DNA from: Halochromatium roseum
GTDB taxonomy: Bacteria; Pseudomonadota; Gammaproteobacteria; Chromatiales; Chromatiaceae
Length of the DNA: 64,000 nucleotides
NCBI RefSeq assembly: GCF_016653315.1
Contig: NZ_NHSH01000076.1
Span: forward strand, 62,001-126,000
Direction of reading: 5' to 3'
Part shown: positions 3,422 through 48,935 of the stretch, one piece after another
Layout of the letters: each line of letters starts with the position of its first letter
Position numbering within the stretch: position 1 is the first letter of the stretch
The notes under the pieces: model-generated
Database searches by the model: none
Told to the model about the DNA's origin: nothing
Seen by the model: the letters and a program-made list of their open reading frames with translations, nothing else
Position numbers and translations under genes: made by a program

Positions 3422-3567
3422 CCGAGATGTGTGCAAAGAGATGCGCAAAGAGCTCGAGCGCATTAGAGAAGATGTCGAACGCATTATGCGTCATGACGGT
3501 TGAGCATGATCACCTCCGATGTCAAGGATTGCACCTGCCTCCGTTCGTGGATGCCGACCAGTCCGCA

Positions 3568-6500
3568 ATGACCGGCCGCACAGAAGCGGTCGCACCAGCG
3601 GCCGCACGCGCACCCAAGTGCTTGGCGTTTGCACTGCTGCTCTTGAGCAGCCTTGTCATCGGCCTTGCCAGCGGCGTCACCTGGGCAGAGACGTCCGCCG
3701 CCTCCGCAGCCATCCCCTTGAGCGCCGAGCAGCGAGCCTGGCTCGATACGCATCCTGACATCGTCCTGGATGCCTCGGACCAGTTTGCCCCGGCCTTGAT
3801 CCGTGAGCCAGATGGAACGCTGACCGGTATCTTCAAGGACATGCTCGATCTGCTGAACCAACGGCTCGGCACGGCCATCCGCTTGCAGGTCAGCTCGAAC
3901 TGGGCCGACATCACCGAGCAGGCACTGGCCGGTCAGGTCGATGGCTTGATGGCGGTTGCGCGGTTGCCACTCTGGCTTGAGCGCTTCCTGCTGACGAACA
4001 CCTTCATCAAGGGCCAAGTCTATCTCTTCGCCGGCGCCGAAGAGACACTGGCCGGTCATGGCGTCGATCGTTTGCGTGACCAACGTGTCGGCGTGCTGCG
4101 CGGGCATCGGCACATCAATGGGCTGCTGAGTGCCTCTGCAGACGCGCTCGAGGTCGTTTCCTACGATGACTATCAGGCCATGGCGGCGGCCTTGTTGTCC
4201 GGAGCAATCGATCGCGTGGTGGCGGATAGCACCTTTGAATGGTGGCGCCGCAAACAGTCGTTGGTGGGGATCGAGATCGCCGCCGTTTGGGAAGAAGCAG
4301 AGTACGAGGGTGTGCTGGCGATCCGCAAGGACTGGCCAGAGCTAGTCGAGATCCTCAATCTGGGACTGGCCAGCATCAGCAGCGCCGAGCGCGCCGCCAT
4401 CTACAACCGCTGGCTGGGCTCGTCCATCGATGCCACCCCCGCATCCGCACTCGAGTTGCTCGCGCTCAGCGAGACCGAGCGCGCCTGGCTGCAGGCGCAC
4501 CCCGAGATCCTGCTCGGCATCAGCGATCAGTTCCAACCCGATGTCATCGTCGGCCCGGATGGGCGCCGGTCCGGCTTGGTGGTCGATCTCATCGAACGAA
4601 TCAACGAGCCGCTCGGCGGCCGCCTCAAGCTGCATGTCGAGCGCGACTGGAGCGAGGTCACGCGCAAGGCCAAGGCGCGCGCGATCGATGGGCTGGCCAG
4701 CTCAGCGCCCAATCCGGTCTGGGACCAGCATTTCCTCTACACTGACCCGCTCTATAAGGGCTTTTTTAGTCTCTATCGTCGCGTCGATGATCCGCCGCTC
4801 AGAGACCGCGAGGCACTGGTCGGTCTGCGCGTCGGCTATTTGGCCGGCATGCGGAAGATCGAGACGCTGCTCGCGGACCTGCCTGACCTCACCCTGGTGC
4901 CGCTGGCCGATCATCCGGCCATGGCCAAGGCGCTGATCAATGGCGAGGTCGATGTGCTGGTGGGCAATATCGATCTGGAATGGTGGCGGCGGCAGCACAG
5001 CTCGCTGGCCTTTCACCCAACCGGGATTCTGGTCGGCAGCGAACATCCGGTGGTCATGTCGATCCGCAACGACTGGCCCGAGCTGGTGGGTATCCTGAAC
5101 AAGGCGCTGCGCGCCATCCCCGCGGCCGAGCGCGCGGGCATCGAGCAGCGCTGGCTGGGAGCCGCACCGCCGCAGACAACCGCGCCACGCCTGAAGCTGT
5201 CGGCGTCGGCGCGCGCTTGGCTCGATGAACATCCACGGATTCGCTTCGCGGTGAGTCGTGATTGGGCGCCGGTCGGCTTCTACGACGGCCAAGATCAACC
5301 CGCCGGCATTGCCCCGGACTATCTCGCGCGCATCGGCGAGATGCTCGGCGTGCAGTTCGAGCCGGTGGCGATCGACGACTGGCCGCAGGCCATGGCCGGC
5401 CTGCAACAAGGTGACATCGATCTGCTGCCCGCGGTGACATCCACACCTGAGCGCGAGCGCGACTTCCTCTTCACCGCGCCCTACCTCGAGTTCCCGATCG
5501 CCATCTTTGCCCAGGTGCAGACCCCGCTGATCGACCGGCTGAGCACCTTGCATGGCCAGCGCGTGATCGTCATCGAGGGCCATGCGATTCAACGCTGGCT
5601 GCAAGAGGATCATCCTGGCATGCGGCTGGTGCCGGTGAGCAATGCCCGAGCGGCGGTGCGCGCGCTGGCGCAAGGGCAGGGCGATGCCCTGATCGGCAAT
5701 CTGTTCGCGATCAGTCAGGCGATCGCGCAGGAACAGCTGTTCCAGTTGCGCGTCGCCGGCGAGACGCCCTATAGCTACCGGCTGGCGATGGCCGTGCGCC
5801 CGGACTGGCAGCCGCTGCTGGCGATCTTGGAGCAGGCGCTGGCGGCGATCCCGGCGGCCGAGCGCGAGGCGATTCAAAGCCGCTGGCTGCGCGCGCTGCC
5901 GCCGGAGCGCATCGATGCTCGACTGTTGTCGCAAATCGGGCTGGGCGTCGCGCTGGTGCTGACCTTGATCTTGCTGTGGAACCTGAGCCTGAGACGCGAG
6001 ATCAACCGCCGCCGGCGCGCCGAACGCCGCCTGACCACGAGTGAGCAACGCTATCGTGGCATGGTCGAGTCGGCGCGTTCGGTGCTGCAGTTTTATTCCC
6101 TCGATGCGCGGGGAATCATGCGCGATGTCAGTGCTGGCGCGCGCGAATTCTTCGACATCGACGACAGCGACATGATCGGCAAGCACTGGCGCGAGATCGC
6201 TGACTGGAGTCCCGACACCCTGCCGCGGATCGAGCAGGCACTGGTGGTGTGCTGGCGCGGCCAGACGCCCGCGCCAATGACCTTGTGCTATGCGCTTCAC
6301 GGGGAATCCCGCTATCTGCTCAGCTTTGCGATTCCGGTCAAGGATGACGGCAACCGCGTGGTGCGCGTCGAGGGGCTGAGTGTCAACCTGACCGAGCGGC
6401 TGCGGCTGGAAGAGGCCGTGCGCGGGCTGGAGTCTGATCTACAGGCCCTCGTCGAGCATTCGCCGATTCCGTTGTTGCTGTCAAGCGGGACGCCAGCGCA

Positions 6501-8706
6501 GGCGTTTCTGGTCAATCGGCGCTTTATCGACCTGATTGGGTATACGGTGGAGCAGATCGGTGATCTCGATCACTGGTTCGAGCTGGCCTATCCCGATCCC
6601 GCGTATCGCCGCCAGATGAGCGCCGAGTGGCAACAGCACTTGGAGCGGGCGTTGGCGACCAACGGCGTGGTCGAGCCAATGGAAGCCAGGATTGCCTGCG
6701 CCGATGGGCAGACGCGAATCTTTCGCGTTTTTTCGGTCAGTTTGAATAAACGCAATCTGGTGATGTTCGTCGATATCACCGAGCAGCGCGCGACCGAGGC
6801 GCGGCTGCGCGCGGCGCAAGAGAAGGCGGAGGCGGCCAATCGCGCCAAGAGCGAGTTTCTCGCCAACATGAGCCACGAGATCCGCACGCCGATGAATGCC
6901 ATTCTCGGCATGCAGTCGCTGTGTCTGGACGGGACCCTGGATGAGCGCAAACGCGACTATCTGCTCGCTGCCCACGGCGCCGCCAACACCTTGCTCGGTC
7001 TGCTCAACGATCTGCTCGATCTGTCCAAGATCGAAGCCGGTCAGTTGCGCCTGGATGCGCGCCCCTTCGCGCTATCGGAGATATTCGACCAACTGCGCAC
7101 GCTGGTGGCGCGCCCAGCCGAGGAGAAGGGGCTGGCGCTGGTCATCGATTGCCCGCCCGAGGTGCCGGACATCCTCTACGGCGATGCGCTGCGACTGAGC
7201 CAGATCCTGCTCAATCTGGCGAACAACGCGGTGAAGTTCACCGACCAGGGCGCGATCCAGATCGAGGCGCGGCTGCTCGAGCGCCTCCCGGCCGAGGTCG
7301 ACGCGGTCCGCGAACGGGTGCATCTGGAGTTTCGCGTGCGCGATACCGGCATTGGTCTGAGCGACGAACAGACCGCCCTGCTGTTCCAACCCTTCCACCA
7401 GGCCGATGGCTCCATCACCCGCCGTTATGGCGGCACCGGTCTGGGGCTGTCGATCTGCAAGCGCTTGGCGCTGATGATGGACGGCGCCATTGGCGTGAAC
7501 AGCCAGCTCGGCGTGGGCAGCACCTTCTGGTTCACCCTGTGGCTCCAATGCCCGCTGCCGGGCGAACGACCCGCGCGCGGGAGCGCCCTGTGCTTGGCGC
7601 AAGCGCCGCTCGAGCTGGCCGGACGGCGCGTGCTGTTGGTCGAGGACAATGCGTTCAATCGCGAGGTCGCGCGCGTCCTCTTGGAGCGTGCCGGGCTCAT
7701 CGTCAGCGAGGCCGAGCAGGGCGTTGCGGCGCTGGCGCAACTGCGCGACAAGGGCTGCGCGGCCTTCGATCTGGTGCTGATGGACATCCAGATGCCGGAG
7801 ATGGACGGGCTGGAAGCGACTCGGCGCATCCGCGCACTGCCCGCTGGCCGCGCGCTGCCGATCATCGGCCTGACCGCGCATGTGCGCGATGAGGATGTGG
7901 CCCGCGCCCGCGCGGCTGGCATGGACGCCCATCTGGGTAAGCCCTTCGAGCCCGCGCGCCTCTATGCGCTGCTGGCTGACCAGCTTGGGCTGGCGCGAGG
8001 CGATGGCGTTGGGGATCAGCCCGAGCCTGAATCCGAGCCCGAGTGGCCGGTCGAGACGCTCGATCTGCCCGCCATCGACGGACTCGATCCCGCGGCGCTG
8101 CGGATCACCTTGGGGCCCGATGTCGACGACTGGCGCAAGTTCCTGCGGCTGTTTGCCGACAATCATGGCGCGCGGCTGGCGCACATCGATGCGGCCCTGG
8201 CGGCCGCTGACAGCGCCCGGGCCGAGCAGGAAGCGCATAGCCTGGTCGGTGCCGCCGGCATGCTGGGGCTGACAGCGATTGGCACCGCCGCGCGTGCGTT
8301 GGAAGACAGGCTGCGCGATCAACCACAGGCGCATGCCGAGATTGCCCAGGCACGCACGCAACTCGCCGAGCGGCTGCAGCCGGCACTGGCCGCCATCGCC
8401 GCCTGGCGTGACGCGAACAGGTCGAACAGGATTGATCCGGCCACCGAGGTGCCGACCACCGCTGTGCCGACCGCCGTGCCGGTGAATCACTCCCGCCTGA
8501 GCGAGGTACTCGCCGAACTGCAAGACTTGGCCGAGGCCCATGACCCGCTGGCGGAAGAGCAGTGGCAGCAGGAAAACGCCCTGCTGCACGCTGGCCTCGA
8601 CCCCGACACGTATCGACGCCTGGAAGGTCAGATCACGGGCTATCGCTTTCCCCAAGCCAGTGCCACGCTGGCGCAGGTGCGCAAAGGGCTTGCGCGAGTC
8701 TCGTAA
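3568..8706 (+). CDS. Giant hybrid sensor histidine kinase with three solute-binding domains (BvgS-like)
   Basis: Membrane phosphorelay sensor of ~1,712 aa. Counting from the ATG at 3568: signal peptide ~1-45 (hydrophobic core [18 protein letters not shown]); three SBP_bac_3 periplasmic domains at ~51-286, 299-533 and 543-780, each ending in a version of DWPELV.ILN..L..I..AER..I..RWL; one membrane helix ~789-809; PAS domains ~825-945 and 955-1075; HisKA with [12 protein letters not shown], phospho-His ~1103; HATPase with DTGIGLS and [11 protein letters not shown]; receiver domain with VLLVEDN and phospho-Asp ~1406 in [11 protein letters not shown]; Hpt domain with [12 protein letters not shown], His ~1557. 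All phosphorelay residues are present. The reading frame is open back to 3427, but 3568 is the start that directly precedes the signal peptide. Ligand is unknown; the architecture is that of BvgS/EvgS-type kinases. The response regulator at 8959 is its likely partner. Confidence 0.93.
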
Positions 8707-23667: not shown

Positions 23668-24645
23668 TCAAGCAGCAGGCTGCTCGGTGCAGGTCAGCGC
23701 CGAGGAGCCGAGCCAGAAGTCCATCCGCTTGTCGAGGAACTCGTCCCAGCGCATGTAGTGCGAGCCGTCGCAGGAGAAGTTGAGCGAGACGATCCCGTTC
23801 ATGATGTTCAGCGAGCCCGAGCGCAGGTAGATGTTCTCGTCCATGTAACGCAACTCGCGGAACTGATCGAACACGGCCTTGACGCGTTCAGCCGGGATCG
23901 CCGCCTCGTCGGGGTAGGCGCGCTGTGGATAGGCCAGGCAGATAGCCGGATCGCTCAGGTCCTCGTAGTCGAGCACCCGGAAATGGTAGGGGTCATCCAG
24001 CAGCCAGAGCGTCGCGCGCGAGCTCGAGAAATGCAGCTTGCCGTGGAAGACGCCGTGGGAGCGGATCAGCTCGGCGATCAGGTCCAGGATCTCGTCGATG
24101 CGCCCGTCCATCAGGCTGTCGACGCGCTGCTGGTAGAACAGGGCGCCGCGGATCGCCGGGTCGCCCTTGAGCTGCAGCCATCGGTCGGATTGCCGGTAGA
24201 GTTCTCGGGTCAAGGGCAGGTCGCGCAGGTCGAAGTCGGCGCCGAGGTAGCCGAGCAGCGTGCCGTCCTCGCGCGTGAGCCGCTGCATCGCGGTCAGCGA
24301 CGGGCGCCGGTTGTTGCGGCTGAGATAGGCCGATGACAGCGAGAAGGCGGCGCCGGCGATGGCGTCGGCCATGTACGGCCGGGTTGTGCGGTCGCGGCCG
24401 AAGTGCTCCGGCAGCAGGCCGCCGGGCGAGACATTGGCGGTGATCTGCCGGGCCTCGTGGTCGAGTAGGTAGAGGTACTTACAGTACGGCAGTCTCTCCA
24501 TCGCCTTGCTCAAAGACTGCTCCAATGCGCTGCGATCGCCCCATGCGTCGCGGCACGCTGTCTCGAGCCGGGAAAGGGCATCCGATAGCCGCGCGTGCAG
24601 GAGCATGCGCTGGCGGGCAATCGCGGTTTGTAGGGCCTCGCTCAT
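23668..24645 (-). CDS. Soluble PDC/Cache sensor-domain protein of the DAB operon
   Basis: 325 aa with no membrane segment or signal peptide. Residues ~45-160 form a PDC-type (Cache) sensor: YLYLLDHEARQITANVSPGG, DRTTRPYMADAI and DGTLLGYLGADFDLRDLP are typical of dCache-like ligand pockets. The C-terminal half (FHGKLHFSSSRATLWLLDD, HYMRWDEFLDKRMDFWLG) has no catalytic motif I recognise. It normally stands next to DUF2309/DabA genes, and here it is the last gene of dabB-dabA-sensor. Cache domains are usually extracytoplasmic, so a cytosolic one suggests sensing of a cytoplasmic metabolite, possibly inorganic carbon; that is inference. ATG 24645 has AGAAGAG just upstream; the frame is open to 24909 without a better start. 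Confidence 0.85.
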   Translation of the reverse strand: MSEALQTAIARQRMLLHARLSDALSRLETACRDAWGDRSALEQSLSKAMERLPYCKYLYLLDHEARQITANVSPGGLLPEHFGRDRTTRPYMADAIAGAAFSLSSAYLSRNNRRPSLTAMQRLTREDGTLLGYLGADFDLRDLPLTRELYRQSDRWLQLKGDPAIRGALFYQQRVDSLMDGRIDEILDLIAELIRSHGVFHGKLHFSSSRATLWLLDDPYHFRVLDYEDLSDPAICLAYPQRAYPDEAAIPAERVKAVFDQFRELRYMDENIYLRSGSLNIMNGIVSLNFSCDGSHYMRWDEFLDKRMDFWLGSSALTCTEQPAA

Positions 24646-24850
24646 GATCTTGCTCTCTTCTGATTGCGACGCAAACTGCGCTCGGATTGGATTGGGATCG
24701 ATACGCGCTCGGGTTGGGAGCGACACGTGCTCGGGTTGGGATGAATGCCGCGCTGGCCATCCTTGGCCAGTGCAACCTCTCTCGTGCATCAGGTCAGCAA
24801 TACCGACACCCTCTTGCTGCCATCTGGCGCTCAGCGCTGTAGGAGCCCGC

Positions 24851-27526
24851 TCACTGACTCGGCACCGCCTGCCAGCCGGCGTGCGGGATGCGCTGCTGGA
24901 TACCGCCATCGTCGTCCATCCGGAACAGGTGCAGCCAGCCGTTGTCGAGCATCTCGCGCACCAGCGGGTGCTTGGCGATGATGTCGTCGATCGGCGCCTG
25001 CGGCGCCTGCAGATAGACGCTCAGGCGCATCGGCTCGTGCACCCAGCGCTTGCCGTCGTGCAATGACTGCATCGGCAGGCCCACGCGCAGGTCGCCGGCG
25101 TTGCCCTCGAGCACGCCGATCGCGCCGCCGACGACATTGTGCAGCACCTTGTTGCCGCTGCCGAAGCGCCGGTTGTCGGTGGTCGAGCCGTAATACTGCA
25201 GGTTGATCCAGCCCGCAACCACCATCGGCGCGGTCATGATCAGCTCGAGCACGCCGAAGCCGCTGTCACCGGTCCAGTCGTAGTCGTGCAGGAAGGTCCG
25301 GCCGCCGAGATCGAGCCCGTGGGTGCGCTCGCGCGGGGCGGCGATGAAGGCCGCGCAGCCGGCCAGCCCCCATTCCGGGCGCACCTGCGACCAGTCGCGG
25401 CTGCGATGGCGGATGTTGGCGGTGATCGCCTGTCGCGAGCGGTGCTCGAGCCCGAGCAGCGCCGCGCGCGACAGCCGCGTCAGCTCACCGGCCTGCTGCA
25501 GCCAGCTGCGCAGCTGCGCCAGCTCCTCGGCGTACTCGCCCGGCAGCACCGCGGTGTCGTAGAGCCGGATCTCATCGACACAGGTGTCGTGCTGCGCGCC
25601 GATGAACCAGGTGTCGTCCGGGATGCGGATGCCGCGCTCGGCGACGCCCTGGCGCACCTTGGGATCATTCAGCAGGGCCGCGCCGATCCGTGCGCTCGCC
25701 TCACCGGTCATGCCGCCGCAGGCGCCGCAGTCGAGGCCGGTCGCGTGCGGGTTGTTGACCACGGTGCTGCCGTGGCCGACCAACAGCACCAGCCGGGCGA
25801 AGTTGTCGGTCATCGACATCGCGCGCAGGATGCCCTCGGCGAGATCGACGCGCTCGGCCTCGGGGATGCCGATGCCTGACCGATGGTGGTGGCTGTGATC
25901 GTGCGCATGGTCGTGTGCCGAGTCCGGTGCTGAACCCCGACTTGAACAGGCGCCGTGGTTGGGCACGTCCAGGCTCGGGCCGACGCGCTTCTCCAGCGGC
26001 GCGTCCAGGTGCAGGTCGTCGGGCGCCGCGACCGGCCGTCCCCAGCCGAAGCTGTCGGCGATGATCTTCGGCGCATAGAGCAGCAGACCCGCGGCCTCGA
26101 CGAACGAGAAGCAGGACGAGGCGCCCATCTTGAACGCCTTCCAGGACTTGCTGATCCCAGTGCGCCGGCGCTGCGTCGCCAGCGCCTGTTCGGCCTCCTC
26201 GGTATCGGCGCCATGCACCTCGGAGCAGACCCGGTACTTGGGCGTCAGCAGCACCGGCATGTGCGAACGCGGCGCGACCGCGCCGAACGGCACATGCTCG
26301 ATCGGCACGCCGAAGAAGCCGGCAAAGCCGAGTGTCTGCGCCCGCGGGCAGATGGTCTCGAACGAGCGGCGCATGACCTCGGAGCGCACGTCGATGCAGA
26401 ACGCGGCCTGGATCACCGGGCGCTGGGTCGCGAGGCGTTCGCCATGCGCGCCGTTCGTGTTGGCCCCATTGCGTAGGTCCGTCATCAGCTGGCGTTGATA
26501 GCCGAGTTCGAAGGCGGTCAGCAGGATGTGCTCGATGTGCTGCGGCTCTGGCGTCGGCTTGGCGGCCGGCTTACCGCGGCTGAGGCGCTTGCAGACCTCG
26601 CGCCAGCGCTTGCTCAGCTCGGGGCTGGCCTTGTGCTCGTAGACCAGCACGTCCCAGGCGAGGCGGATCGCCAGCAGCTCGACGATGGTCTCGTCCTCGC
26701 CGCCGATGAGTTCCTGCTCCCAGCGTAGCAGACGGGTCCAGGCGGCCCAGCCGCCGATGTCCATCAGCGCGGCGTGCATGTAATCGAGCGCGGCATCGGC
26801 CGGGATGCCGAGGCGCCGAATGGCCGAATCAATGCAGTCGCGCGGCAACTCCGGCAGCGCCTTGACCCGGGCGCGCATGCCGCCCTGGCCCATCATCGTG
26901 GTGCTGTAGTCCAGCGCGGCGAAACGGCGCCAGGATTCATAGAGCGACATGCCCTGCCAGGGCCGCTTCCAGGTCGCCTGGCCCATGTCGAAATAGGCCG
27001 CGCAATGATGGCTGATGCGCTCGACGACGAAGCTCGACCAGTCGTCGGCGTCGAGCTCATCGAGTACCGAGGTCAGCAGCGGAACCTGAGCGGATAGGGG
27101 CACCGACGGCGGCGTCGCATCGACGGCCGCCGCTTGACGCAGCTCGGCGGCGCTGAGGTCGCTGCCGCAGCGTGCCGCGGCGGCATCGAGATCCGCGTCG
27201 GTGATGCGTCCGGCCTCGATCTGCTCGCGATAGTAGCTCCGCGGCATGTACATCCGGGCGCCGGCGATGCGCCGCATGGTCTCGGCGGCCTGCTCGAAGC
27301 GCTGATCACGCAGCCCGTGAAACGGATTCACGGCGACGAAGCGATCGAGCGGCCAGACCGGCGCGATGCGGTTGCAGGCGGCGTCGATCTGCTCCGGCAA
27401 GGGTGCCGGCGTCGGCTCGGGCGGGTTGGCCGGGGCCATCGACATCGCTGGGGTGCCGTCGGCGTTGATGCCGATCGGCTGGCGCTCGAGGGTCTGATCG
27501 TCGATGCGGTTGTCTTGCATGTTCAT
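24851..27526 (-). CDS. dabA: Inorganic-carbon transporter subunit DabA (DUF2309)
   Basis: 891-aa large subunit of the DAB energy-coupled inorganic carbon pump: a beta-carbonic-anhydrase-like zinc protein bound to the membrane by DabB. The four predicted zinc-site/active-site residues are present: Cys377 and Asp379 (FCIDVRSE), His585 (LVGHGSTVV) and Cys600 (LDCGACGG); the His-Cys spacing of 15 equals that of the characterised Halothiobacillus protein (H524, C539), from memory of that work. PLDRFVAVNPFHGLRDQ opens the conserved part. Between the two halves of the site is an extra segment around residues 530-555 rich in His and Asp (HDHAHDHSHHHR). Follows dabB by 63 bases. Expected job: convert CO2 to cytosolic bicarbonate using the ion gradient for the Calvin cycle. 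Confidence 0.93.
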   Translation of the reverse strand: MNMQDNRIDDQTLERQPIGINADGTPAMSMAPANPPEPTPAPLPEQIDAACNRIAPVWPLDRFVAVNPFHGLRDQRFEQAAETMRRIAGARMYMPRSYYREQIEAGRITDADLDAAAARCGSDLSAAELRQAAAVDATPPSVPLSAQVPLLTSVLDELDADDWSSFVVERISHHCAAYFDMGQATWKRPWQGMSLYESWRRFAALDYSTTMMGQGGMRARVKALPELPRDCIDSAIRRLGIPADAALDYMHAALMDIGGWAAWTRLLRWEQELIGGEDETIVELLAIRLAWDVLVYEHKASPELSKRWREVCKRLSRGKPAAKPTPEPQHIEHILLTAFELGYQRQLMTDLRNGANTNGAHGERLATQRPVIQAAFCIDVRSEVMRRSFETICPRAQTLGFAGFFGVPIEHVPFGAVAPRSHMPVLLTPKYRVCSEVHGADTEEAEQALATQRRRTGISKSWKAFKMGASSCFSFVEAAGLLLYAPKIIADSFGWGRPVAAPDDLHLDAPLEKRVGPSLDVPNHGACSSRGSAPDSAHDHAHDHSHHHRSGIGIPEAERVDLAEGILRAMSMTDNFARLVLLVGHGSTVVNNPHATGLDCGACGGMTGEASARIGAALLNDPKVRQGVAERGIRIPDDTWFIGAQHDTCVDEIRLYDTAVLPGEYAEELAQLRSWLQQAGELTRLSRAALLGLEHRSRQAITANIRHRSRDWSQVRPEWGLAGCAAFIAAPRERTHGLDLGGRTFLHDYDWTGDSGFGVLELIMTAPMVVAGWINLQYYGSTTDNRRFGSGNKVLHNVVGGAIGVLEGNAGDLRVGLPMQSLHDGKRWVHEPMRLSVYLQAPQAPIDDIIAKHPLVREMLDNGWLHLFRMDDDGGIQQRIPHAGWQAVPSQ

Positions 27527-27542
27527 CGGTCGTGCTCCTCTC

Positions 27543-27581
27543 TGTTCGGGCTCGCTGTTCGGGCTCGCTGTTCGGGCTCGC
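27543..27581. repeat. 13-bp tandem repeat, 3 perfect units
   Basis: Unit TGTTCGGGCTCGC repeated three times without change, then a partial fourth unit, filling most of the 63-base gap between dabB and dabA. Confidence 0.9.
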
Positions 27582-27589
27582 TGTTTGGA

Positions 27590-29203
27590 TCAGGCCAGCG
27601 CCGGTGCAGGCGCGCGGCGGATGGGCCAGAGGCGGGTGATCAGTCGCGTCACCAGGATGTCGACGTAGAGGCCGTTGTAGAGGTGCATCTGGATGGCCAG
27701 CCTGGTCGGCCCCTGGATGCGGGTGAACAGGTGCTGCAAGGTGATCAGACCGATGAACACCACGATGACGGCCAGGCTCAGGCCCATGTCGAAGGCGTTG
27801 AAGCTGGCCTCGACCGGGGTGATGCTGCCGGCGATCGCATGCTCGAAGGCGGTATGCAGACCGAAGTAAGCGATGCAGACGAAGGCGCCGATCGCGGTTG
27901 CGCGCAGCAGCAGCTTGGCGTTGTCCTCGAGCACCAGCGCCTGCAGCAGGAGCTGGGCGACGGCGATGGCGACGATGGCGCCGGTCACGATCAGGGCCGG
28001 TTGATGGGTCGGGTCGATGCCGAACGCGAAGCCGGCGATCAGTGCCATCAACAGCGCGCCCTGGAAGGCGACCAGCCAGTGCCAGGCCTGCGGGGCGCCG
28101 GCGTTGAACTTGAGTGCCGGGGCGCGGAAGCCGTCGACGCTGCTGCCGGAGGCGAGGAAGGCGTGGGCCTTGTAGAGCGAGTGCGCGACCAGGTGCAGCA
28201 GCGCCAGGCTATAGAGCCCGAGACCGGCCTCGAGCAGCATGAAGCCCATCTGCGCCGAGGTCGACCAGGCCAACGAGACCTTGATGCTGGTCTGGGTCAA
28301 CATCACCAGCGACGCGATCGCGAGGGTGGTGAGGCCGATGATGGCCAAGCCATCCAGCGCGGAGCCGGACGCCGACATGATCGGGCTCATCCGGATCACC
28401 AGGAAGGCGCCGGCGTTGACGATGCCGGCGTGCAGCAGCGCCGAGACCGGCGTGGGTGCCTCCATCACCTGCAAGATCCAGCCGTGGAACGGGAACTGCG
28501 CGCACTTGAGCGCGGCGCTGATCACCACCAGCCAGGCGGCCCAGTGCAGCGCGGCCGGCAGCGGCCCCTCGAGCGCGGCCATCGCGGCATAGACCGACTG
28601 GAAGTCGAGCGTCTGCAGGGTGCCGCCGATCAAGAGTACCGCGATCAGTAGGCTGGCATCGCCGATGCGGCTGAACACGAACTTCTTGTGCGCGGCCATC
28701 AACGCCGCCGGGCGCTCCGGGTAGAACACCAGCAGCCGATGCAGGCAGAGGCTGGTCGCCATCCAGGCCAGCGCGAACATCAGCAGGTTGCTGGCGACGA
28801 TCAGGGTCAGGATCGACGCCAGGGTCATCAGCATCCACTTGTGGAAGTGCCCCTCGCGCGTCTCGCCTGCCATATAGTTACGCGAGTAGGTCGAGACGAT
28901 GGCGCCGACCAGCGACACCAGGGCAAGCATGATCACGGTCACGCCGTTGACCAGCACACCGATCGCAAAATCGCCAATGCCGAAGGGTAGGCCGATGGAC
29001 AAGAAGGTGACAGTCTCTGCCGGCCCGAAGCCATGGCCGATGAGACTCATGATGGCGAAGGCAAAGGCCAGCCAGGCGGCGCCGTTGGCGGCGCGGGCCA
29101 TCAGTGCGCCATGGCGATTCGCCGTCTCGCCCGGCACCATGGCGGTGAGCCAGAGCGCTAGTGGTGCCGCGACAGCGGCAGTGGTGACGAGTGTCGATGA
29201 CAT
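27590..29203 (-). CDS. dabB: Inorganic-carbon transporter membrane subunit DabB (NuoL/MrpA-like)
   Basis: 537-aa polytopic protein of the proton-translocating NADH:quinone oxidoreductase subunit-5 family, with the antiporter-type core: FHKWMLMTLASILTLIVASN, WMATSLCLHRLLVFY, HKKFVFSRIGDASLLIAVLL, CAQFPFHGWILQVMEAPTPV and SALLHAGIVNAGAFLVIRM, and QTSIKVSLAWSTSAQMGF. In the DAB complex it is taken to couple cation flow to the DabA zinc site. It lacks neighbours of complex I, so a respiratory role is unlikely. ATG 29203 has GGAGGAG 6 bases upstream. First gene of the leftward dab operon, divergent from modE. Confidence 0.9.
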   Translation of the reverse strand: MSSTLVTTAAVAAPLALWLTAMVPGETANRHGALMARAANGAAWLAFAFAIMSLIGHGFGPAETVTFLSIGLPFGIGDFAIGVLVNGVTVIMLALVSLVGAIVSTYSRNYMAGETREGHFHKWMLMTLASILTLIVASNLLMFALAWMATSLCLHRLLVFYPERPAALMAAHKKFVFSRIGDASLLIAVLLIGGTLQTLDFQSVYAAMAALEGPLPAALHWAAWLVVISAALKCAQFPFHGWILQVMEAPTPVSALLHAGIVNAGAFLVIRMSPIMSASGSALDGLAIIGLTTLAIASLVMLTQTSIKVSLAWSTSAQMGFMLLEAGLGLYSLALLHLVAHSLYKAHAFLASGSSVDGFRAPALKFNAGAPQAWHWLVAFQGALLMALIAGFAFGIDPTHQPALIVTGAIVAIAVAQLLLQALVLEDNAKLLLRATAIGAFVCIAYFGLHTAFEHAIAGSITPVEASFNAFDMGLSLAVIVVFIGLITLQHLFTRIQGPTRLAIQMHLYNGLYVDILVTRLITRLWPIRRAPAPALA

Positions 29204-29311: not shown

Positions 29312-30286
29312 ATGGATAAGCCGCCCAAACGGCCTCAGGCTGCCTCTTCGGGAGCGCGAGCGACCTCCGTCAACGTCGGCGGCGAACTCTGGCTCAGCGT
29401 CGGCGAGGTCGCCTTCCTGGGCGAGGCGCGGATCGGGCTGCTCGAGCAGATCGGCGAGCGCGGCTCGATCACCCAAGCCGCCAAGGCAGCAGGGATCAGC
29501 TATAAGGCCGCCTGGGATGCGGTCGACGCGATGAACAACCTCGCCCCGACGCCGGTGGTGGCGACGGCGACCGGCGGGCGGGGTGGGGGCGGCGCACGAC
29601 TCACCGATGAAGGTCGGCGTCTGATTGCGGCCTATCGCACCCTCTCCGCCGAGTACCAGCGTTTCTTGGAGAGCGTGAATGCAGCGCTGGGCGACCGCGA
29701 GGCCGGTGTCGCGATGCTGCAGCGATTGGCCTTGCGCACCAGCGCCCGAAATCAGTTCATCGGCCAGATCGTCTCCGTCACCGCGCGACCGGTGGATGCC
29801 GAGGTCGAGATCGCGATTCAGGGTGGTGCGCGGGTCCGCGCTGGCGTGACCAATGAGAGTGTCGACTGTCTTGGGCTCAAGCCCGGGCGCCATGTCTGGG
29901 CGTTGATCAAGGCCGTGGCCGTGCGGATCGAGCCGGAAACCGCCTGCGCTCGCTCAAGGATCGGCACTCACTCGAGACCTAGCTCAAGCGTTGACACTCG
30001 CCTCAACCAGAGCCCCAGCCCCAGCTCGATTTCCAGCCCAAGTTTCAGCTCCAGTCATGGCACCCGCACCGGCATCTCCGATCTTGGTCTCAATCGGCTC
30101 TGCGGGCAGGTCCAGCGCATCACCCGCAGCGATGGCCCGGCCGAGGTGGTCATCGCACTTGAAGCCGGTATCACGATACGCGGCCTGATCGATGCCGAGC
30201 GTCTGGAGCCGCTCGGGATCAGTGAACAAACATCGGCTTGCGCGCTGTTTGACCCCGCAAGCGTGATCATCGGAGTGAGCGACTAA
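29312..30286 (+). CDS. modE: Molybdate-responsive regulator ModE
   Basis: 324-aa dimeric regulator that binds operators when loaded with molybdate. Winged helix ~25-120: LLEQIGERGSITQAAKAAGI and SYKAAWDAVDAMNN, as in ModE/LysR-type N-termini. First Mop/TOBE domain ~140-205 (RTSARNQFIGQIVSVTARPV), second ~255-320 (GLNRLCGQVQRITRSDGPAE to ASVIIGVSD). The two are separated by ~50 residues rich in Ser, Pro and Thr, far longer than in E. coli ModE, where the domains are nearly contiguous. Starts 108 bases from divergent dabB; the intervening bases 29265-29311 are AT-rich and probably hold promoters. It heads the molybdenum island that follows. Confidence 0.93.
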   Translation: MDKPPKRPQAASSGARATSVNVGGELWLSVGEVAFLGEARIGLLEQIGERGSITQAAKAAGISYKAAWDAVDAMNNLAPTPVVATATGGRGGGGARLTDEGRRLIAAYRTLSAEYQRFLESVNAALGDREAGVAMLQRLALRTSARNQFIGQIVSVTARPVDAEVEIAIQGGARVRAGVTNESVDCLGLKPGRHVWALIKAVAVRIEPETACARSRIGTHSRPSSSVDTRLNQSPSPSSISSPSFSSSHGTRTGISDLGLNRLCGQVQRITRSDGPAEVVIALEAGITIRGLIDAERLEPLGISEQTSACALFDPASVIIGVSD

Positions 30287-31183: not shown

Positions 31184-32440
31184 CTAAACCCGGCCTTCAG
31201 CGAGGGCCGTCGGCATCGCCGCGGCGTAGAGGGTCAAGCACAGCTCAAGGTCATCGATCTGCTCGTAGAGCGGGCAAATACCGGACAGCTGCGTGCTCTC
31301 GCGCAGGATGGTCTCGACGCCAAAGCCGCGCCGGTCCATCAAGAAGCTCTTGCCGAGGCGTGGGTCTTCGACCGGATAGTAGCGACCAAAGAGACTGGTG
31401 AGCACCTCATTGCGCGGGACCGAAAGCCGGGTCATGGACTCCAGGGACAGGGTATTCGGCAGCGCCCCTGGCGAGTGGATTTCGAGGCGGTCGCTGTACA
31501 TGAACAGCCGGATGCGTTGGCCGTGCAGCGAGTAGTCGCGATGGGCGACGGCATTGACGATGGCCTCAAACAGGGCCGCGACCGCGTATTGGGGATAATC
31601 GATGCGGCCGAGCGGTTTGCGTGCTGCCGTGCGCATATTGCGTTGGACGAAATGGAAGGCATCCAGGATCTGCCGGTCGAGCGGCCCGCCGATGTCGCGG
31701 GCATCGATCTGCGCGTTCGGGTCGTTCTCGGTCCCGGTATGGGCGACGGCGATGATCTCGGCATTGCGCAGCCAACGCGCAGGCTCGGTGGTGCACAGCA
31801 GCACGCCGGCCACGGTCGGCCGTGGCTCGCCGGCGACCTCGCGCAACAGGTGCAGTCGGCTCAGTTGGGCGATGGGGTCGCCTTGCTCGACCTTCAGGAA
31901 GCGTCGCAGCAGGAGCGCGTCGAAGTCATCGAAACCACAGCCGGGAACCTCCTGTTCCTCGAAGCGGATCAGTCGCGCTTGACTGCGTTGTTGGAAGAGA
32001 CGCGCGAGCGCGTCCGGCGCGAGTTCCCGTTTGGCATGACCGAGGCGACGAAAATAGCCGTTCGCGCTCTGATGCACCCACAGGCTGCGGGGCACCTCGA
32101 CGAGGATCACCGGGCGCGCCGCGCCGGTGGCATCAGGTAGTTCCAGATGCCGGGTCAGGACATCTAATGGTGGCTTGATGCGATCGGTGCAGAGCGCGGT
32201 GAGCCAGTCTTCGACGCGGTCGAGGTGCTGCAGCGGGATGCCTGTAACAACCCGGCTCTTATCATCCACACCGAGCACCAGCATGCCGCCGCCGGCATTG
32301 CCGAGCGCCGCCAGTTCATCCGATAAGCTGTCGGCATGCGGTGCCTTGACCTTGCCGGCATCGGTGAGCCTGACCTGTTTCAGCTCCAGCGCGGAGTCTT
32401 CGCCCAGGCGGATGCGTTGCAGTAGCTCTGCGGGGGTCAT
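31184..32440 (-). CDS. AlbA_2 (Schlafen-like) / HATPase_c_4 putative transcription or nucleic-acid regulator
   Basis: 418 aa. N-terminal AlbA_2 domain ~5-125: ALELKQVRLTDAGKV then DELAALGNAGGGMLVLGVDD, the ExxxK.....AFANT-type pattern, here with LGNAGG. C-terminal ATPase-like domain ~255-400: YAVAALFEAIVNAVAHRDYS, RIRLFMYSDRLEIHSPGALP, and MDRRGFGVETIL, as in proteins often mislabelled RecG-like helicases; there is no helicase core. The Asn/His of NAVAHRDY fits ATP binding by a GHKL-type pocket. Such proteins are seen as regulators and in defence islands; nothing here points to one over the other. It separates the methyltransferase from modD, with 80 bases to the modD stop. Confidence 0.85.
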   Translation of the reverse strand: MTPAELLQRIRLGEDSALELKQVRLTDAGKVKAPHADSLSDELAALGNAGGGMLVLGVDDKSRVVTGIPLQHLDRVEDWLTALCTDRIKPPLDVLTRHLELPDATGAARPVILVEVPRSLWVHQSANGYFRRLGHAKRELAPDALARLFQQRSQARLIRFEEQEVPGCGFDDFDALLLRRFLKVEQGDPIAQLSRLHLLREVAGEPRPTVAGVLLCTTEPARWLRNAEIIAVAHTGTENDPNAQIDARDIGGPLDRQILDAFHFVQRNMRTAARKPLGRIDYPQYAVAALFEAIVNAVAHRDYSLHGQRIRLFMYSDRLEIHSPGALPNTLSLESMTRLSVPRNEVLTSLFGRYYPVEDPRLGKSFLMDRRGFGVETILRESTQLSGICPLYEQIDDLELCLTLYAAAMPTALAEGRV

Positions 32441-43084: not shown

Positions 43085-43205
43085 GGCTCTAAGTCCTTAA
43101 TCGTGTGATTAGGGTATGGATCAAGCGCGACCATTATCGCGCGATGCGGCCCAGATGCCACGGCTTTGCGCGGGGATGGGAAGATCTGACCCCATAACAG
43201 GGATC

Positions 43206-46200
43206 ATGAAGGCGTTTAGTCCCGCAACTCGCCGCTGGTTCACTCAGCACTTCGACGGTCCGACCGATGCCCAAAGGCGCGGCTGGCCGGTGATTGCGAG
43301 TGGCCGGCATTGCCTGATCACTGCGCCGACCGGTAGCGGCAAGACCTTAGCGGCGTTTCTCTGGGCCATCGATCGCCTGCTCGTTGAGGTGGGCCGAGAG
43401 ATGGGCCAAGAGGTAGACCAAGAAGTGGGCCAATCGGCGCTCAAGCCAAGCCAGCCGTCGACCCAAGTGCCCTGCGCCGGTCTCCGTGTTGAGGCGCGCC
43501 GGTCGGCTCCGCCCGGTACGCGTGTGCTCTATCTGTCGCCGCTGAAGGCGCTGGTGGTCGACATCGAGCGCAACCTGCGTGCGCCCTTGGCCGGCATCAC
43601 CCAGGCCGCCGCAATGCTCGGCACCGGCGGCCAGGCGGCTGCGCTACGGCCGCCGGAGGTTGCGATCCGCACCGGCGACACTCCTGCGCGTGAGCGCCAG
43701 CGCCAGCTCAAGACGCCGGCCGAGATCCTGGTCACCACGCCAGAGAGCCTGTACCTGATCCTTGGCTCGCAGGCCGCTGCCACCCTAAGTCAGATCGAGA
43801 CGGTCATCGTCGATGAGGTGCATGCGCTGGCGCCGACCAAGCGGGGCGCGCATCTGGCGCTGTCACTCGAGCGGCTATGCCTGCTGGTCACCCAGTCCGG
43901 CAATCCAGAGCCACAGCGTATCGGATTGTCGGCGACGATGCAGCCGCTGACCGAGGCGGCACGCTGGCTCGGTGGCGATCGAGCGGTCGAGATCGTTGAT
44001 GCCGCGGCACCGCCGAGACTCGATTTACGCGTCAGCGTACCGGTCCCCGATATGGAGCGCCCACCCCAGCCATTGGTCGAGCAGAGGTCAAAGCCTGCCT
44101 CGGTCGAGCCCGAAGGCGGGCCGATCCTGGGTGAGCTGTTTGCTCGTGAGCAGCAGCATCCAAGCGAAAACCGCTCGGCCGAGAAGGGACTCTGGTCGGC
44201 GATCTATCCCGCCTTGCTCGATGAGATCATGGCGCATCGCTCCACGATTATCTTTGTCAACAGCCGCGGGCTTTGCGAGCGGCTGTCGCAGCGGCTGAAC
44301 GCCTTGGCGGCCGAGCCAGCGGTGGAGGATGACGAAGACAGAGACAGAGACAGAGATGTCGACGGCGTCGATCAAGCAGAAGGCCTTGGCGCGATTTTGG
44401 ATTCGGATGCTGCTCCTGAAGCGCGAGCTTTCGCTGATGAAGGCGGCCTGATCGCGAATCCGAAGGCAGCTCTTGAGCGTGCGGAGCGAGGTCATGACGA
44501 AGCGCAGGATGGGCTGGACAGCGACGAGACTCGCGTCGGCAGGCTGAGCGCAACATCTGAGCGAAAAGCCCGCAGGCACTGGCTCGACGGCATCGATGAG
44601 CCAAGCGCTCCGCTGCCAGAGCTGGTGCGCGCACACCATGGCAGCGTCAGCCATCAGCAGCGCAGCGAGATCGAGGAGGGCCTCAAGCGCGGCAGCCTGA
44701 AGGCCATCGTCGCCACCAGCTCGCTGGAGATGGGCATCGACATGGGTGGGGTCGATCAGGTGTTGCTGGTCGAATCGCCAGGCTCGGTGGCGCGCGGGCT
44801 GCAACGCGTTGGTCGTGCCGGGCACGGTGTCGGCGAGGTCAGCACCGGGCGCATCTTCCCTAAGTATCGCGGCGATCTGCTCGAATGCGCGGTGATCGCC
44901 GAGCGCATGTTGGCCGGCGAGCTGGAGCCGTTCCGGATGCCGCGCAATGCACTCGATGTGCTGGCGCAGCAGCTGGTGGCGCACTGCGTGATGGCTCCGC
45001 GTAGCGTTGATGAGCTGCTGGCGTTGGTCAATCGCGCCGGGCCTTATCGCGAGCTGAGCCGCGCCGCACTCGAGGCGGTGCTCGACATGCTCTCTGGGCG
45101 CTATCCGTCGAGCGACTTCGCCGATCTGCGCCCGCTGCTGGTCTGGGACCGTAGCACCGACCTGCTCAGCCCGCGCAAGGGTGCGCCGATGGTGACGCGG
45201 CTCAATGCCGGCACCATCCCGGATCGCGGGCTCTACGCGGTGCATCTCGGCTCCGAGGGCCCGCGCATCGGCGAGCTGGACGAGGAGATGGTGTTCGAGA
45301 CCCGCGCCGGCGAGTGCATCCTGCTCGGCGCCAGCAGCTGGCGGGTCGAGGAGATCAGCCGTGATCGGGTGATCGTCTCGCCGGCGCCAGGGGAGCCGGG
45401 CAAGCTACCTTTCTGGCGCGGCGATGGGCCAGGCCGGCCGGTGGAGCTGGGCCGGGCGGTTGGGGCCTTTTGTCGAGAGGTTGCGGCGCTGGGGTTTGGC
45501 GCAGCGCCTGAGGACTCCGCCCTTGGAGCCTTGGGTCCGTCCGTTCAGACATCGGCGCTGCCGCCGGGTCAGACTCGGCCAATGGAACAAGCCGCGGCCT
45601 GGATTCGCCAGCGCACACCGCTTGACGCGATGGCTGCCGACAACCTGGCCGCCTACATCCAAGATCAGCGCGAGGCGACCGGGCAGGTGCCGAGCGACCG
45701 CACCATTGTCGTCGAGCGCTTCCGCGATGAGCTGGGCGATTGGCGGATCTGCATCCTGAGTCCCTTTGGTGCGCGCATCCATGCCCCTTGGGCAATGGCG
45801 CTGCAGTGGCGCCTCGAGCGCTGCGAGGGCTTCGAGATCCAGGTGATGTACACCGATGACGGCATCGTGCTGCGCTTGGCCGATGGCGATGCGCTGCCCG
45901 ATCTGACCGATCTGTTGCCTGATCCCGACGAGATCGAGGATCGGGTCACCGAGCAGCTGGCCGACACCGCGCTCTTCGCCAGCCTGTTCCGCGAGAATGC
46001 CGGCCGCGCCCTGCTGCTGCCGCGTCGCTCGGCCAAGGGCCGGCAGCCGCTCTGGGCGCAGCGCTTGAAGGCGCAGAATCTGCTCGCCGTGGTGCGCCGC
46101 TATCCGGCCTTTCCGATCGTGCTCGAGACCTATCGGCAAGCGCTCAGCGATGTCTTCGACCTACCTGGCCTGAAACAGATTCTGAGCGCTCTTCGCTCGC

Positions 46201-48935
46201 GCGCGATCCGCGTGCATGAGGTCGAGACCCGCAGTGCCTCGCCGTTCGCGCGTTCACTGGTGTTCGCCTATGTCACCGCCTACATCTACGAGCAGGATGC
46301 ACCGATTGCCGAACGGCGCGCGCAGGCCCTGACGCTGGATCGCGGCCTACTCGCCGAGCTGCTCGGCGAGGCTGAGCTGCGCGCGTTGATCGATCCTGAG
46401 GTGCTGGAGGCATTGGAGCGCGAATTGCAGCATCTGGCGCCCCTGCGTCTTGTGGATGATCGCAACGAGCCTGCGCATGATCGGGACGAGGCTGGCGCTG
46501 ATGCCGATATCGACGCCGATCCTGTCACCGATCTGGCTGCGATCGATCGGCGCGCGCGCGATCTCGATCAACTGCAGGATCTGCTACGCCGACTCGGTGA
46601 TCTCACCGAGCTCGAGCTGTTAGAGCGCTGTCGGCTGCCGCTAAGCGTACCCGCTGGCGCAGCTTCAGAGGCCGGTCCGACCGAGCAGGCGGCCGAGCAG
46701 GCGACCAAGCAGGCGGCCGAGCAGGCGACCAAGCAGGCGTGCGCTCCACAGACGGACAGGCAGCCAGCCGCCATGGCCGCCCCTTTGTCGACCGCTGTCA
46801 GCTCAGGCGGTGCTTCCGCTGATGCTGCCCGGACCCTCTCCGCTTGGCTCGATCAGCTTCGCGATCAGCGTCGCGCCGCGCAGGTTCGCATCGCTGGCGA
46901 GCCCCGCTGGATCGCCGCCGAGGATGCCGGGCTGTATCGCGATGCGCTCGGCTGCGTGCCGCCAGCCGGTCTCCCGGAAGCGTTCATCGGTGCCACTGAG
47001 GCACCGTTAGAGCAGCTATTGCGCCGCTATGCCCGAACTCATGGCCCCTTTACCAGCACCGAGCCAGCGCATCGATTCGGGCTGCGCGCGGCCCAGCTGG
47101 AGCCGGTGCTCAGGTTGCTCGAGTCCCAGGGCACGCTGGTCTATGGTGAGATTCGACCCAACGGCAGCAGCCCCGAGTGGTGTGATGCCGAGGTCATGCG
47201 GCAGCTGCGTCGTCGCACCCTGGCGCGAGCGCGTGATCAGGTCGCACCCGTCGATGGCGCCACGCTTGGCCGGTTCCTGCCGGCTTGGCATGGGATCGGC
47301 GAGGGGCGCAAAGGTCCTGATCGGCTGTTCGAGGCACTGATCCAGCTCGAAGGCCTGAGTCTGAGCTGGCGCCAGCTCGACCGCGTGCTGCTGCCCGCGC
47401 GGGTGCCGGGCTATCGCAGCGAGGATCTCGATCTGCTGGCGGCCAGCGGGCAGATCATGTGGGTCGGGCGTGGCGCGGCCGGACCCAAGGACGGCCGCAT
47501 CGCGATCTATCGCTCAGAGCATGCGGCGCTCATGCTCGATATCGGCGAGGTGCCGCCGCCGTTCGACCGGCGACTTGATCACGAGCGGCAAACCGCTGAT
47601 GCGAGCAACGACCCCGCTGGGGCAGAGGCATCGAATGCCGCCGCGGCGTCTGCGCGCTTGGCGACGGGAAGCGGCAATGCCGAGGAGTCCGCTCCAGCCG
47701 TGGCTCAGCAAATCGGCGCCGAGCACAAGCCGCAATCCGACCCGACGGCGGCTATTGCCGAGCTGATCCTCGCGCACCTCAGCCGTCGAGGCGCCTGCTT
47801 CCTCTTCGAGCTGCAGCAGGTGGTGGAGCGGGCCAGCTTGGCTCGGCCTGGGCTAGCAGCGGGCGTGAGGGCCGAGCAAGATGCCTTCGAGACGGCGCTT
47901 TGGGATCTGGTTTGGGACGGCCGTATCACCAACGATACCTTTGCACCCTTGCGCTCGCTCGGCCCTGGTCGCTCCAAATCGCCGCGGCCGCGCCGGCGAG
48001 GGCGGTTCAACAGGGGTGCCTTCTCTGCGGGCAGTGCCTTCGGTGGCGGTCTCGCCGGAGGTCGCTGGTCATTGGTCAGGGATCTCGCTGGCGTTGATAC
48101 CTGGCTAGGCGAGGGTGCCGAGGCAGGATCTCTGGATGCTCTGGACGGCTTGGACCCATCAACGGACAGGCTTTCAGCGGTCACAGGCAGGGGCAGGGCC
48201 CCGACCGCGGGAGCCGCTGCAGCCTTGCAGATGACAGAGCGGCTGCTCAGGCAGGCGCAAATGCTGCTGGAACGCTATGGCGTGTTGAGCCGCGAAGCCG
48301 TCGTGGCCGAGGATCTGCCAGGTGGATTCGGCCCGCTCTACAAGGTGCTGAAGCAGATGGAGGAGGTCGGGCAGGTACGCCGCGGCTACTTCGTCGAAGG
48401 GCTGTCCGGCGCGCAGTTTGCGCTGCCTGCGGCGATCGATCGCTTGCGCGCAGCCCGGCTCGACGAGCCACCGCTCAATGGCTTCGACCAGTCGGATGTC
48501 CGCATCCTCGCCGCGATTGATCCAGCCAACCCCTATGGTGCGCTTCTGCCTTGGCCGGAGGCCGTGCAGCCTGGCCCGAAACGCATCGCTGGCGCCTGGG
48601 TGATCCTGGTCGCCGGCAAGCCCATCGTCTATGTCCCCGCCAGCGGCAAGCAGATCCTGACCTTTCCCGATGCCGTCAGCGATGAAGGCAATGAGCTCGA
48701 GCTAGCGCTGGCGGCTTTGCCGCGGGTACCTTCAGCCGGCCGCAAGCGCCTGCTCATCCAGCACATCGACGGCCTGCCAGCGCTCGAATCGCCGCTGCGC
48801 GAGGCCCTGCTTGCCGCCGGTTTCGAGGCCGATTACGACGCCCTAGCGCCAGCCCGCTTCGCGACGGATCGCGCCGGCAGCAGCGGAACTGGTCGCGATC
48901 CCAATGCGATCTCTTGCCGCTGGGCCGCGGGGTGA
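43206..48935 (+). CDS. lhr: Large ATP-dependent helicase Lhr
   Basis: ~1,909 aa superfamily 2 DNA helicase. Walker A ITAPTGSGKTLAAFLWAIDR at ~40, DEVH box at 203-206, LSATM, the C-lobe ATSSLEMGIDMGGVDQVLLV and RVGRAGHGVG. The winged-helix and Lhr core that follows (FRMPRNALDVLAQQLVAHCV, RTPLDAMAADNLAAYIQDQ) shows the full long Lhr form with a C-terminal Lhr-CTD. E. coli Lhr is 1,538 aa; the excess here comes from low-complexity linkers: at ~375-450 (Asp/Arg-rich), ~1155-1195 (Gln/Ala-rich repeat) and ~1450-1510. ATG 43206 (MKAFSPATRRWFTQHFDG) with AGGGA just upstream is preferred to 43116. Acts in replication-coupled or mutagenic-damage repair by family. Confidence 0.94.
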   Translation: MKAFSPATRRWFTQHFDGPTDAQRRGWPVIASGRHCLITAPTGSGKTLAAFLWAIDRLLVEVGREMGQEVDQEVGQSALKPSQPSTQVPCAGLRVEARRSAPPGTRVLYLSPLKALVVDIERNLRAPLAGITQAAAMLGTGGQAAALRPPEVAIRTGDTPARERQRQLKTPAEILVTTPESLYLILGSQAAATLSQIETVIVDEVHALAPTKRGAHLALSLERLCLLVTQSGNPEPQRIGLSATMQPLTEAARWLGGDRAVEIVDAAAPPRLDLRVSVPVPDMERPPQPLVEQRSKPASVEPEGGPILGELFAREQQHPSENRSAEKGLWSAIYPALLDEIMAHRSTIIFVNSRGLCERLSQRLNALAAEPAVEDDEDRDRDRDVDGVDQAEGLGAILDSDAAPEARAFADEGGLIANPKAALERAERGHDEAQDGLDSDETRVGRLSATSERKARRHWLDGIDEPSAPLPELVRAHHGSVSHQQRSEIEEGLKRGSLKAIVATSSLEMGIDMGGVDQVLLVESPGSVARGLQRVGRAGHGVGEVSTGRIFPKYRGDLLECAVIAERMLAGELEPFRMPRNALDVLAQQLVAHCVMAPRSVDELLALVNRAGPYRELSRAALEAVLDMLSGRYPSSDFADLRPLLVWDRSTDLLSPRKGAPMVTRLNAGTIPDRGLYAVHLGSEGPRIGELDEEMVFETRAGECILLGASSWRVEEISRDRVIVSPAPGEPGKLPFWRGDGPGRPVELGRAVGAFCREVAALGFGAAPEDSALGALGPSVQTSALPPGQTRPMEQAAAWIRQRTPLDAMAADNLAAYIQDQREATGQVPSDRTIVVERFRDELGDWRICILSPFGARIHAPWAMALQWRLERCEGFEIQVMYTDDGIVLRLADGDALPDLTDLLPDPDEIEDRVTEQLADTALFASLFRENAGRALLLPRRSAKGRQPLWAQRLKAQNLLAVVRRYPAFPIVLETYRQALSDVFDLPGLKQILSALRSRAIRVHEVETRSASPFARSLVFAYVTAYIYEQDAPIAERRAQALTLDRGLLAELLGEAELRALIDPEVLEALERELQHLAPLRLVDDRNEPAHDRDEAGADADIDADPVTDLAAIDRRARDLDQLQDLLRRLGDLTELELLERCRLPLSVPAGAASEAGPTEQAAEQATKQAAEQATKQACAPQTDRQPAAMAAPLSTAVSSGGASADAARTLSAWLDQLRDQRRAAQVRIAGEPRWIAAEDAGLYRDALGCVPPAGLPEAFIGATEAPLEQLLRRYARTHGPFTSTEPAHRFGLRAAQLEPVLRLLESQGTLVYGEIRPNGSSPEWCDAEVMRQLRRRTLARARDQVAPVDGATLGRFLPAWHGIGEGRKGPDRLFEALIQLEGLSLSWRQLDRVLLPARVPGYRSEDLDLLAASGQIMWVGRGAAGPKDGRIAIYRSEHAALMLDIGEVPPPFDRRLDHERQTADASNDPAGAEASNAAAASARLATGSGNAEESAPAVAQQIGAEHKPQSDPTAAIAELILAHLSRRGACFLFELQQVVERASLARPGLAAGVRAEQDAFETALWDLVWDGRITNDTFAPLRSLGPGRSKSPRPRRRGRFNRGAFSAGSAFGGGLAGGRWSLVRDLAGVDTWLGEGAEAGSLDALDGLDPSTDRLSAVTGRGRAPTAGAAAALQMTERLLRQAQMLLERYGVLSREAVVAEDLPGGFGPLYKVLKQMEEVGQVRRGYFVEGLSGAQFALPAAIDRLRAARLDEPPLNGFDQSDVRILAAIDPANPYGALLPWPEAVQPGPKRIAGAWVILVAGKPIVYVPASGKQILTFPDAVSDEGNELELALAALPRVPSAGRKRLLIQHIDGLPALESPLREALLAAGFEADYDALAPARFATDRAGSSGTGRDPNAISCRWAAG
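46683..46739. repeat. 12-bp in-frame repeat in lhr linker
   Basis: About five 12-base units of the form GAGCAGGCGNCC/AAGCAGGCG, encoding alternating EQAA and KQAT blocks. Confidence 0.82.

Follow-up and report, generated by a model that had tools for sequence, protein, structure and literature searches.

One of the described systems closest to the locus studied here is the DAB2 complex of Halothiobacillus neapolitanus, which was published as DabA2 plus DabB2 (PMC13144422). The site of DabA2 comprises C351, D353, R355, H524, and C539, and the 2026 paper on the structure of DAB2 names regulation among the key unknowns (PMC13144422). Among sensory proteins, the best points of comparison are PctA, KinD, DctB, and CtaA, which contain Cache (PDC) domains of the dCache_1 type. 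Amino-acid sensors of the dCache_1AA group have the motif Y121, R126, W128, Y129, Y144, and D173, in PctA numbering (PMC10104139), and two other Cache families, YkuI_C and Diacid_rec, are mainly intracellular (Upadhyay 2016, PMC4822843). In a literature search, we found no paper that pairs a PDC sensor domain with dabA. A search for Cache domains together with carboxysomes gave one match (PMC8980812), which concerns PleC/PodJ.

We analyzed a 64-kb stretch of the genome of Halochromatium roseum ("the window"; contig NZ_NHSH01000076.1, positions 62,001 to 126,000), in which dabB and dabA are followed by a gene for a soluble Cache protein. We call this third gene X. An earlier note, made from the sequence alone, proposed that X is a regulator of DAB activity.

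The dabB-dabA-X locus

According to the earlier note, dabB, dabA, and X lie head to tail on one strand, facing away from modE, and the coordinates and strands agree with this (Table 1). The interval that it gave for the three genes (24645-29203) reaches no further than the first base of X, at its start codon, so the third gene itself was left out. X is single-copy in the H. roseum genome, and the modE-type gene was also found in three other loci (L002-L004). In another genome of the same genus (G098, L229), which keeps a different dabA type, X is apparently split, close to the end of a contig, into a pair of short frames (G098:C8:105647-105900).

Table 1. Features of the dabB-dabA-X locus, in window coordinates
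Feature	Position	Strand	Length or residues	Description	Evidence
dabB	27590..29203	minus	537 aa	membrane subunit of DAB CO2-uptake complex	Pfam PF00361 Proton_antipo_M, E 2e-40; NCBIfam NF006029
dabA	24851..27526	minus	891 aa	carbonic-anhydrase-like subunit	Pfam PF10070 DabA, E 4e-281
dabA-X spacer	24646..24850	minus	205 bp		
X (third gene)	23668..24645	minus	325 aa	soluble two-domain Cache protein	
Cache/PDC domain of X	24205..24639	minus	residues 3-147	invariant R84, R86, R89, Y91, Y107, D137	AlphaFold2 model, VIA, conservation
C-terminal domain of X	23707..24123	minus	residues 175-313	no Pfam family	
modE-type molybdate regulator	29312..30286	plus		divergent neighbor of dabB-dabA-X	ModE/TOBE models

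Both core genes of a DAB system are present: DabB is of the NuoL/Mrp type, and DabA has a zinc site of the form C/D/R/H/C. The zinc-site residues that the earlier note listed as kept in DabA (Cys377, Asp379, His585, and Cys600) were all confirmed in the translation. R381, in the motif CIDVR, is present as well; it corresponds to R355 of H. neapolitanus DabA2 and completes the Asp-Arg pair. In their zinc and Asp-Arg residues, the dabB and dabA of the window resemble the DAB2 complex, but X is no part of that complex as published (PMC13144422).

The spacer between dabA and X opens with a partial palindromic repeat of the GCCCGCAAGCGGGCTCCTACAG-/GCCCGCAAGCGGGCTCCTAC-type (window 24837-24850), of which L002 and L003 have a more complete form. 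The corresponding spacer of L005 measures just 78 bp and lacks the repeat. A scan of the window's 205-bp spacer for promoter and terminator patterns was uninformative, with none found. With spacers of these lengths, dabA and X may be co-transcribed. The spacer between dabB and dabA (27527-27589) is made up mostly of direct repeats of GAGCCCGAACAGC.

Elsewhere, the window encodes a hybrid histidine kinase of 1759 aa in which three SBP_bac_3 matches are accompanied by PAS, receiver, and Hpt domains (3427-8706), a protein with Schlafen AlbA_2 and HATPase_c_4 domains that is flanked by a methyltransferase and nadC (31184-32440), and a 1939-aa Lhr-type large helicase-related protein (43116-48935).

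X is a soluble protein with a single Cache domain

The earlier note described the third gene product as a Cache-type protein without a membrane segment, whose sensing domain lies in the cytosol, and our analysis supports each part of this description. No 19-residue window of X has a mean hydropathy above 0.94, so X has no membrane segment; because it is both soluble and of the Cache type, its ligand pocket is placed in the cytosol. The dCache_1 profile matches all 48 of the 48 aligned homologs (best E 9e-11). By itself, the window's X matches this profile with E 1.6e-4, which does not reach the Pfam cut-off. The AlphaFold2 model of X has two domains, with pLDDT above 90 across most of the Cache domain. 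When compared to known structures with VIA, residues 3-147 matched KinD (Z 15.8, rmsd 4.1 A, 151 residues), CitA (Z 14.3, rmsd 2.4, 127 residues), and YkuI (2w27; Z 13.7). The model and the VIA matches agree on a Cache fold with a long N-terminal helix.

X shares this fold, a helix plus a PAS-like core, with PctA, KinD, DctB, and CtaA. Unlike those proteins, X has a single Cache unit and no kinase, chemotaxis, or GGDEF output, and the transmembrane helices that flank the Cache domain of a membrane-bound receptor are absent. With the YkuI_C and Diacid_rec families, X shares the cytosolic location of its Cache domain (PMC4822843). However, YkuI carries an EAL domain, whereas X carries an unrelated and uncharacterized C-terminal domain. 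A search of plasmids for annotated relatives of X returned a single partial match, on an Acidithiobacillus caldus plasmid (NZ_CP005987): a protein annotated by name as "PDC sensor domain-containing protein," which is 36% identical to residues 33-148 and which matches just the Cache part of X.

The predicted ligand pocket

When X is aligned to PctA and KinD, R89 takes the position of the carboxylate-binding R126 of PctA and aligns with the arginine of the DRSFF motif of KinD. Similarly, Y107 takes the position of Y144, and D137 that of D173, an aspartate that contacts the ligand. At other pocket positions, Y91 replaces W128, R84 replaces Y121, and methionine or leucine replaces Y129. We considered whether X might be an amino-acid sensor of the dCache_1AA group. 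Although R126, Y144, and D173 are kept, the other three motif positions (W128, Y121, and Y129) differ, so we rejected this idea.

We computed conservation over 168 sequences. In the subfamily that includes the window's X, R84, R86, R89, Y107, D137, and R141 are invariant in 70 of 70 sequences. Outside this subfamily, R89 and Y107 are nearly invariant, and R84, R86, D137, and R141 vary in a minority of rows. From the pocket residues, we infer that the ligand is probably a small anionic metabolite that bears a carboxylate.

The C-terminal domain

In the AlphaFold2 model, residues 175-313 form a confident domain (core pLDDT above 90) with a repeated pattern of a helix plus three strands. When this domain was compared to the PDB, the best Foldseek match had E 0.03, with none at E 0.001 or better, and the best VIA match had Z 4.5. 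Thus, we found no convincing match in the PDB, although this does not by itself prove a new fold. The candidates (salicylate synthase, SRP9/14, sliding clamps, and Polo-box) were weak matches that are unrelated to each other, and we rejected them.

The C-terminal domain is conserved as strongly as the Cache domain, including at R166, W214, R266, D269, R275, N280, S291, C292, D293, and H296. It also exists alone in other genomes, as proteins of ~160-200 aa. In L230 (8025-9315, G042:C1), a beta-carbonic anhydrase gene (Pro_CA E 2e-12) follows 107 bp after a copy of the stand-alone domain. We considered a partnership between the stand-alone domain and carbonic anhydrase, but this neighbor is absent from the other stand-alone loci that we fetched. 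Another copy (L235 about 5456-7050, G096) faces away from a LysR gene, which is CbbR-like in appearance.

Distribution of X and DabA

We compared 116 genomes from the window's GTDB family (Chromatiaceae). X is present in 80 of these, DabA in 52, and RuBisCO in 98. X and DabA occur together in 42 genomes, X occurs without DabA in 38, and DabA occurs without X in 10. Four genomes (G022, G027, G075, and G104) have the same type of DabA as the window and no X anywhere. Just 3 of the 116 genomes have X and dabA within 300 bp of each other, plus one with a dabA relic. The conserved linkage to dabA on which the earlier proposal depended was largely not borne out by this comparison: X is not present wherever DabA is, and it seldom adjoins dabA.

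We then considered the whole class, with one genome for each of 157 GTDB families. Of the 38 genomes with X, 36 also have RuBisCO (odds ratio 37, p 3e-12), 35 have SoxB, and 15 have DabA. Among the RuBisCO carriers in this sample, the association of X with DabA is not significant (odds ratio 1.8, p 0.32). Because RuBisCO and SoxB co-occur so closely, these tables cannot separate a role of X in carbon fixation from a role in sulfur lithotrophy. Overall, X is common in sulfur-oxidizing, CO2-fixing bacteria, with or without DAB uptake genes; it is also found in iron oxidizers of the Gallionella/Sideroxydans type.

Genes near X

To describe the neighborhoods of X, we kept 80 of the 237 relatives that a genome scan gave, selecting those that resemble the X of the window. 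In 8 of these 80 loci, dabA lies within about 8 kb of X. The order dabB-dabA-X, all on the same strand, is found within the Chromatiaceae in Halochromatium, Lamprobacter, and Thiohalocapsa. It is found again in two Thiobacillus-type loci (L020 and L025), as part of the arrangement cbbR/dabB-dabA-X/cbbR/csoS2/csoSCA; the DabB of these loci is 60% identical to that of the window. In L016, dab genes lie 3 kb from X. The locus fetched from Thiocapsa roseopersicina (L013) has no dabA close to X. In three separate lineages, X is directly behind cbbR (L026, L051, and L043, where the gap is about 30 bp). Finally, carboxysome genes, a nudix gene, and a gene for a CcmP-like shell protein are found beside X in L024, L026, L027, and L032; the contig of L027 ends inside the CcmP-like gene.

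All of the copies of X near CO2-fixation genes belong to the window's subfamily, which includes 70 of the 168 sequences and has a FastTree support of 100. In particular, 16 of these 70 are linked to CO2-fixation genes, versus 0 of the 98 elsewhere (p 3e-7, ignoring relatedness). By chance, about 1.7% of X loci would be expected to have RuBisCO or dabA within 8 kb, and an adjacency of the dabB-dabA-X kind has a chance of about 3e-5 per locus. There are at least six placements of X beside dabBA, cbbR, RuBisCO, or carboxysome genes, versus about one expected (p 0.001 for 6 of 70 rows). The CO2-fixation neighbors that we scanned for are absent from 54 of the 70 loci in this subfamily and from all 98 others. 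In the class-wide fetch, just 4 of about 100 loci had such neighbors, which is close to the chance rate.

We also looked for a recurrent signaling partner of X, such as a kinase or a cyclase, and found none among 81 loci. The most common clusters of neighbors in these loci are an NtrC-like regulator (7 loci) and small families that are unrelated. In L025, a DUF6671 reading frame (E 1e-29) lies between dabA and X (about 7208-8000); this frame is mostly deleted in L020, and remnants of it are found in L020 and L196.

Possible roles of X

We have moderate confidence that X is an orphan cytosolic sensor of a metabolite, that it acts in autotrophic metabolism and is not specific to DAB, and that dabBA-X is one lineage-specific arrangement. 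Because X is widespread in sulfur-oxidizing CO2 fixers with or without DAB genes, a general role in the signaling of autotrophy is more likely than a dedicated role in controlling CO2 uptake. In the mechanism that we propose, X would be a cytosolic ligand-binding signaling protein of lithoautotrophic, mostly sulfur-oxidizing proteobacteria. Its Cache domain would bind a small anionic carboxylate metabolite via R89 and D137, along with R84, R86, and R141; binding would alter the contact between the C-terminal domain and a partner and would thereby tune CO2 fixation or energy metabolism. In Halochromatium, Lamprobacter, and Thiohalocapsa, the single copy of X just happens to sit behind dabBA; in other lineages it sits behind cbbR or beside carboxysome genes instead.

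Another possibility, which we view as somewhat doubtful but credible, is that X is a general signaling protein of sulfur and iron lithotrophs (responding, for instance, to the cell's energy or carbon state) and that its contacts with CO2-fixation genes reflect incidental shuffling. This is consistent with the equally strong association with SoxB, with the presence of X in iron oxidizers, and with the absence of a recurrent neighbor at most loci of X. However, incidental shuffling does not fit well with the excess of placements beside CO2-fixation genes, all in one subfamily, or with cbbR-X pairs in three separate lineages. A more specific form of the preferred reading seems unlikely: here the orphan sensors, each an intracellular Cache domain joined to a new C-terminal domain, would be an undescribed family of one-component or adaptor proteins that sense CO2-fixation status and that act, in sulfur-oxidizing proteobacteria, together with CbbR and the machinery for concentrating CO2. 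The arrangements dabBA-X and cbbR-X would be two genomic forms of this family.

The proposal that the DAB complex has X as its dedicated regulator or as a third component, with X sensing bicarbonate or a Calvin-cycle metabolite and gating DabA, is now very improbable. The recurrence of dabB-dabA-X in the Chromatiaceae and in Thiobacillus-type loci, which is unexpected by chance, argues for it. However, X adjoins dabA in only a few lineages, DabA is missing from nearly half of the family's genomes that have X, the window's type of DabA occurs without X, and the association with DabA is not significant once RuBisCO is accounted for. Furthermore, either gene can decay beside the other: in G286 (L196), an intact dabBA is followed downstream by a frame-shifted remnant of X, and in G028 (L213), a short remnant of dabA lies ahead of an intact X. 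That X and dabA each outlive the other speaks against a joint obligatory function. From the distribution of X and the decay in both directions, we reject DAB-specific regulation as the general role of X. A weaker form of the idea survives: one subfamily of X repeatedly settles beside genes for CO2 fixation or CO2 uptake.

Least probable of all is that X is an enzyme or a scaffold, with a structural Cache fold and a catalytic C-terminal domain: this domain equals the Cache domain in conservation, exists alone, and in one case precedes a carbonic anhydrase gene, but neither the family nor the fold searches matched X to an enzyme, and the carbonic anhydrase neighbor is found at one locus only.

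As a putative sensor of autotrophic metabolism, X carries less weight than was first hoped, given its lack of specificity for DAB. Carbon-status sensing in chemolithoautotrophs and the switching of DAB are open questions. For these, X is a concrete candidate: it is a conserved soluble protein of the sensor type, it is found almost only in lithotrophs with RuBisCO, it is recurrently located behind cbbR or dabBA, and it adds an uncharacterized conserved C-terminal domain.
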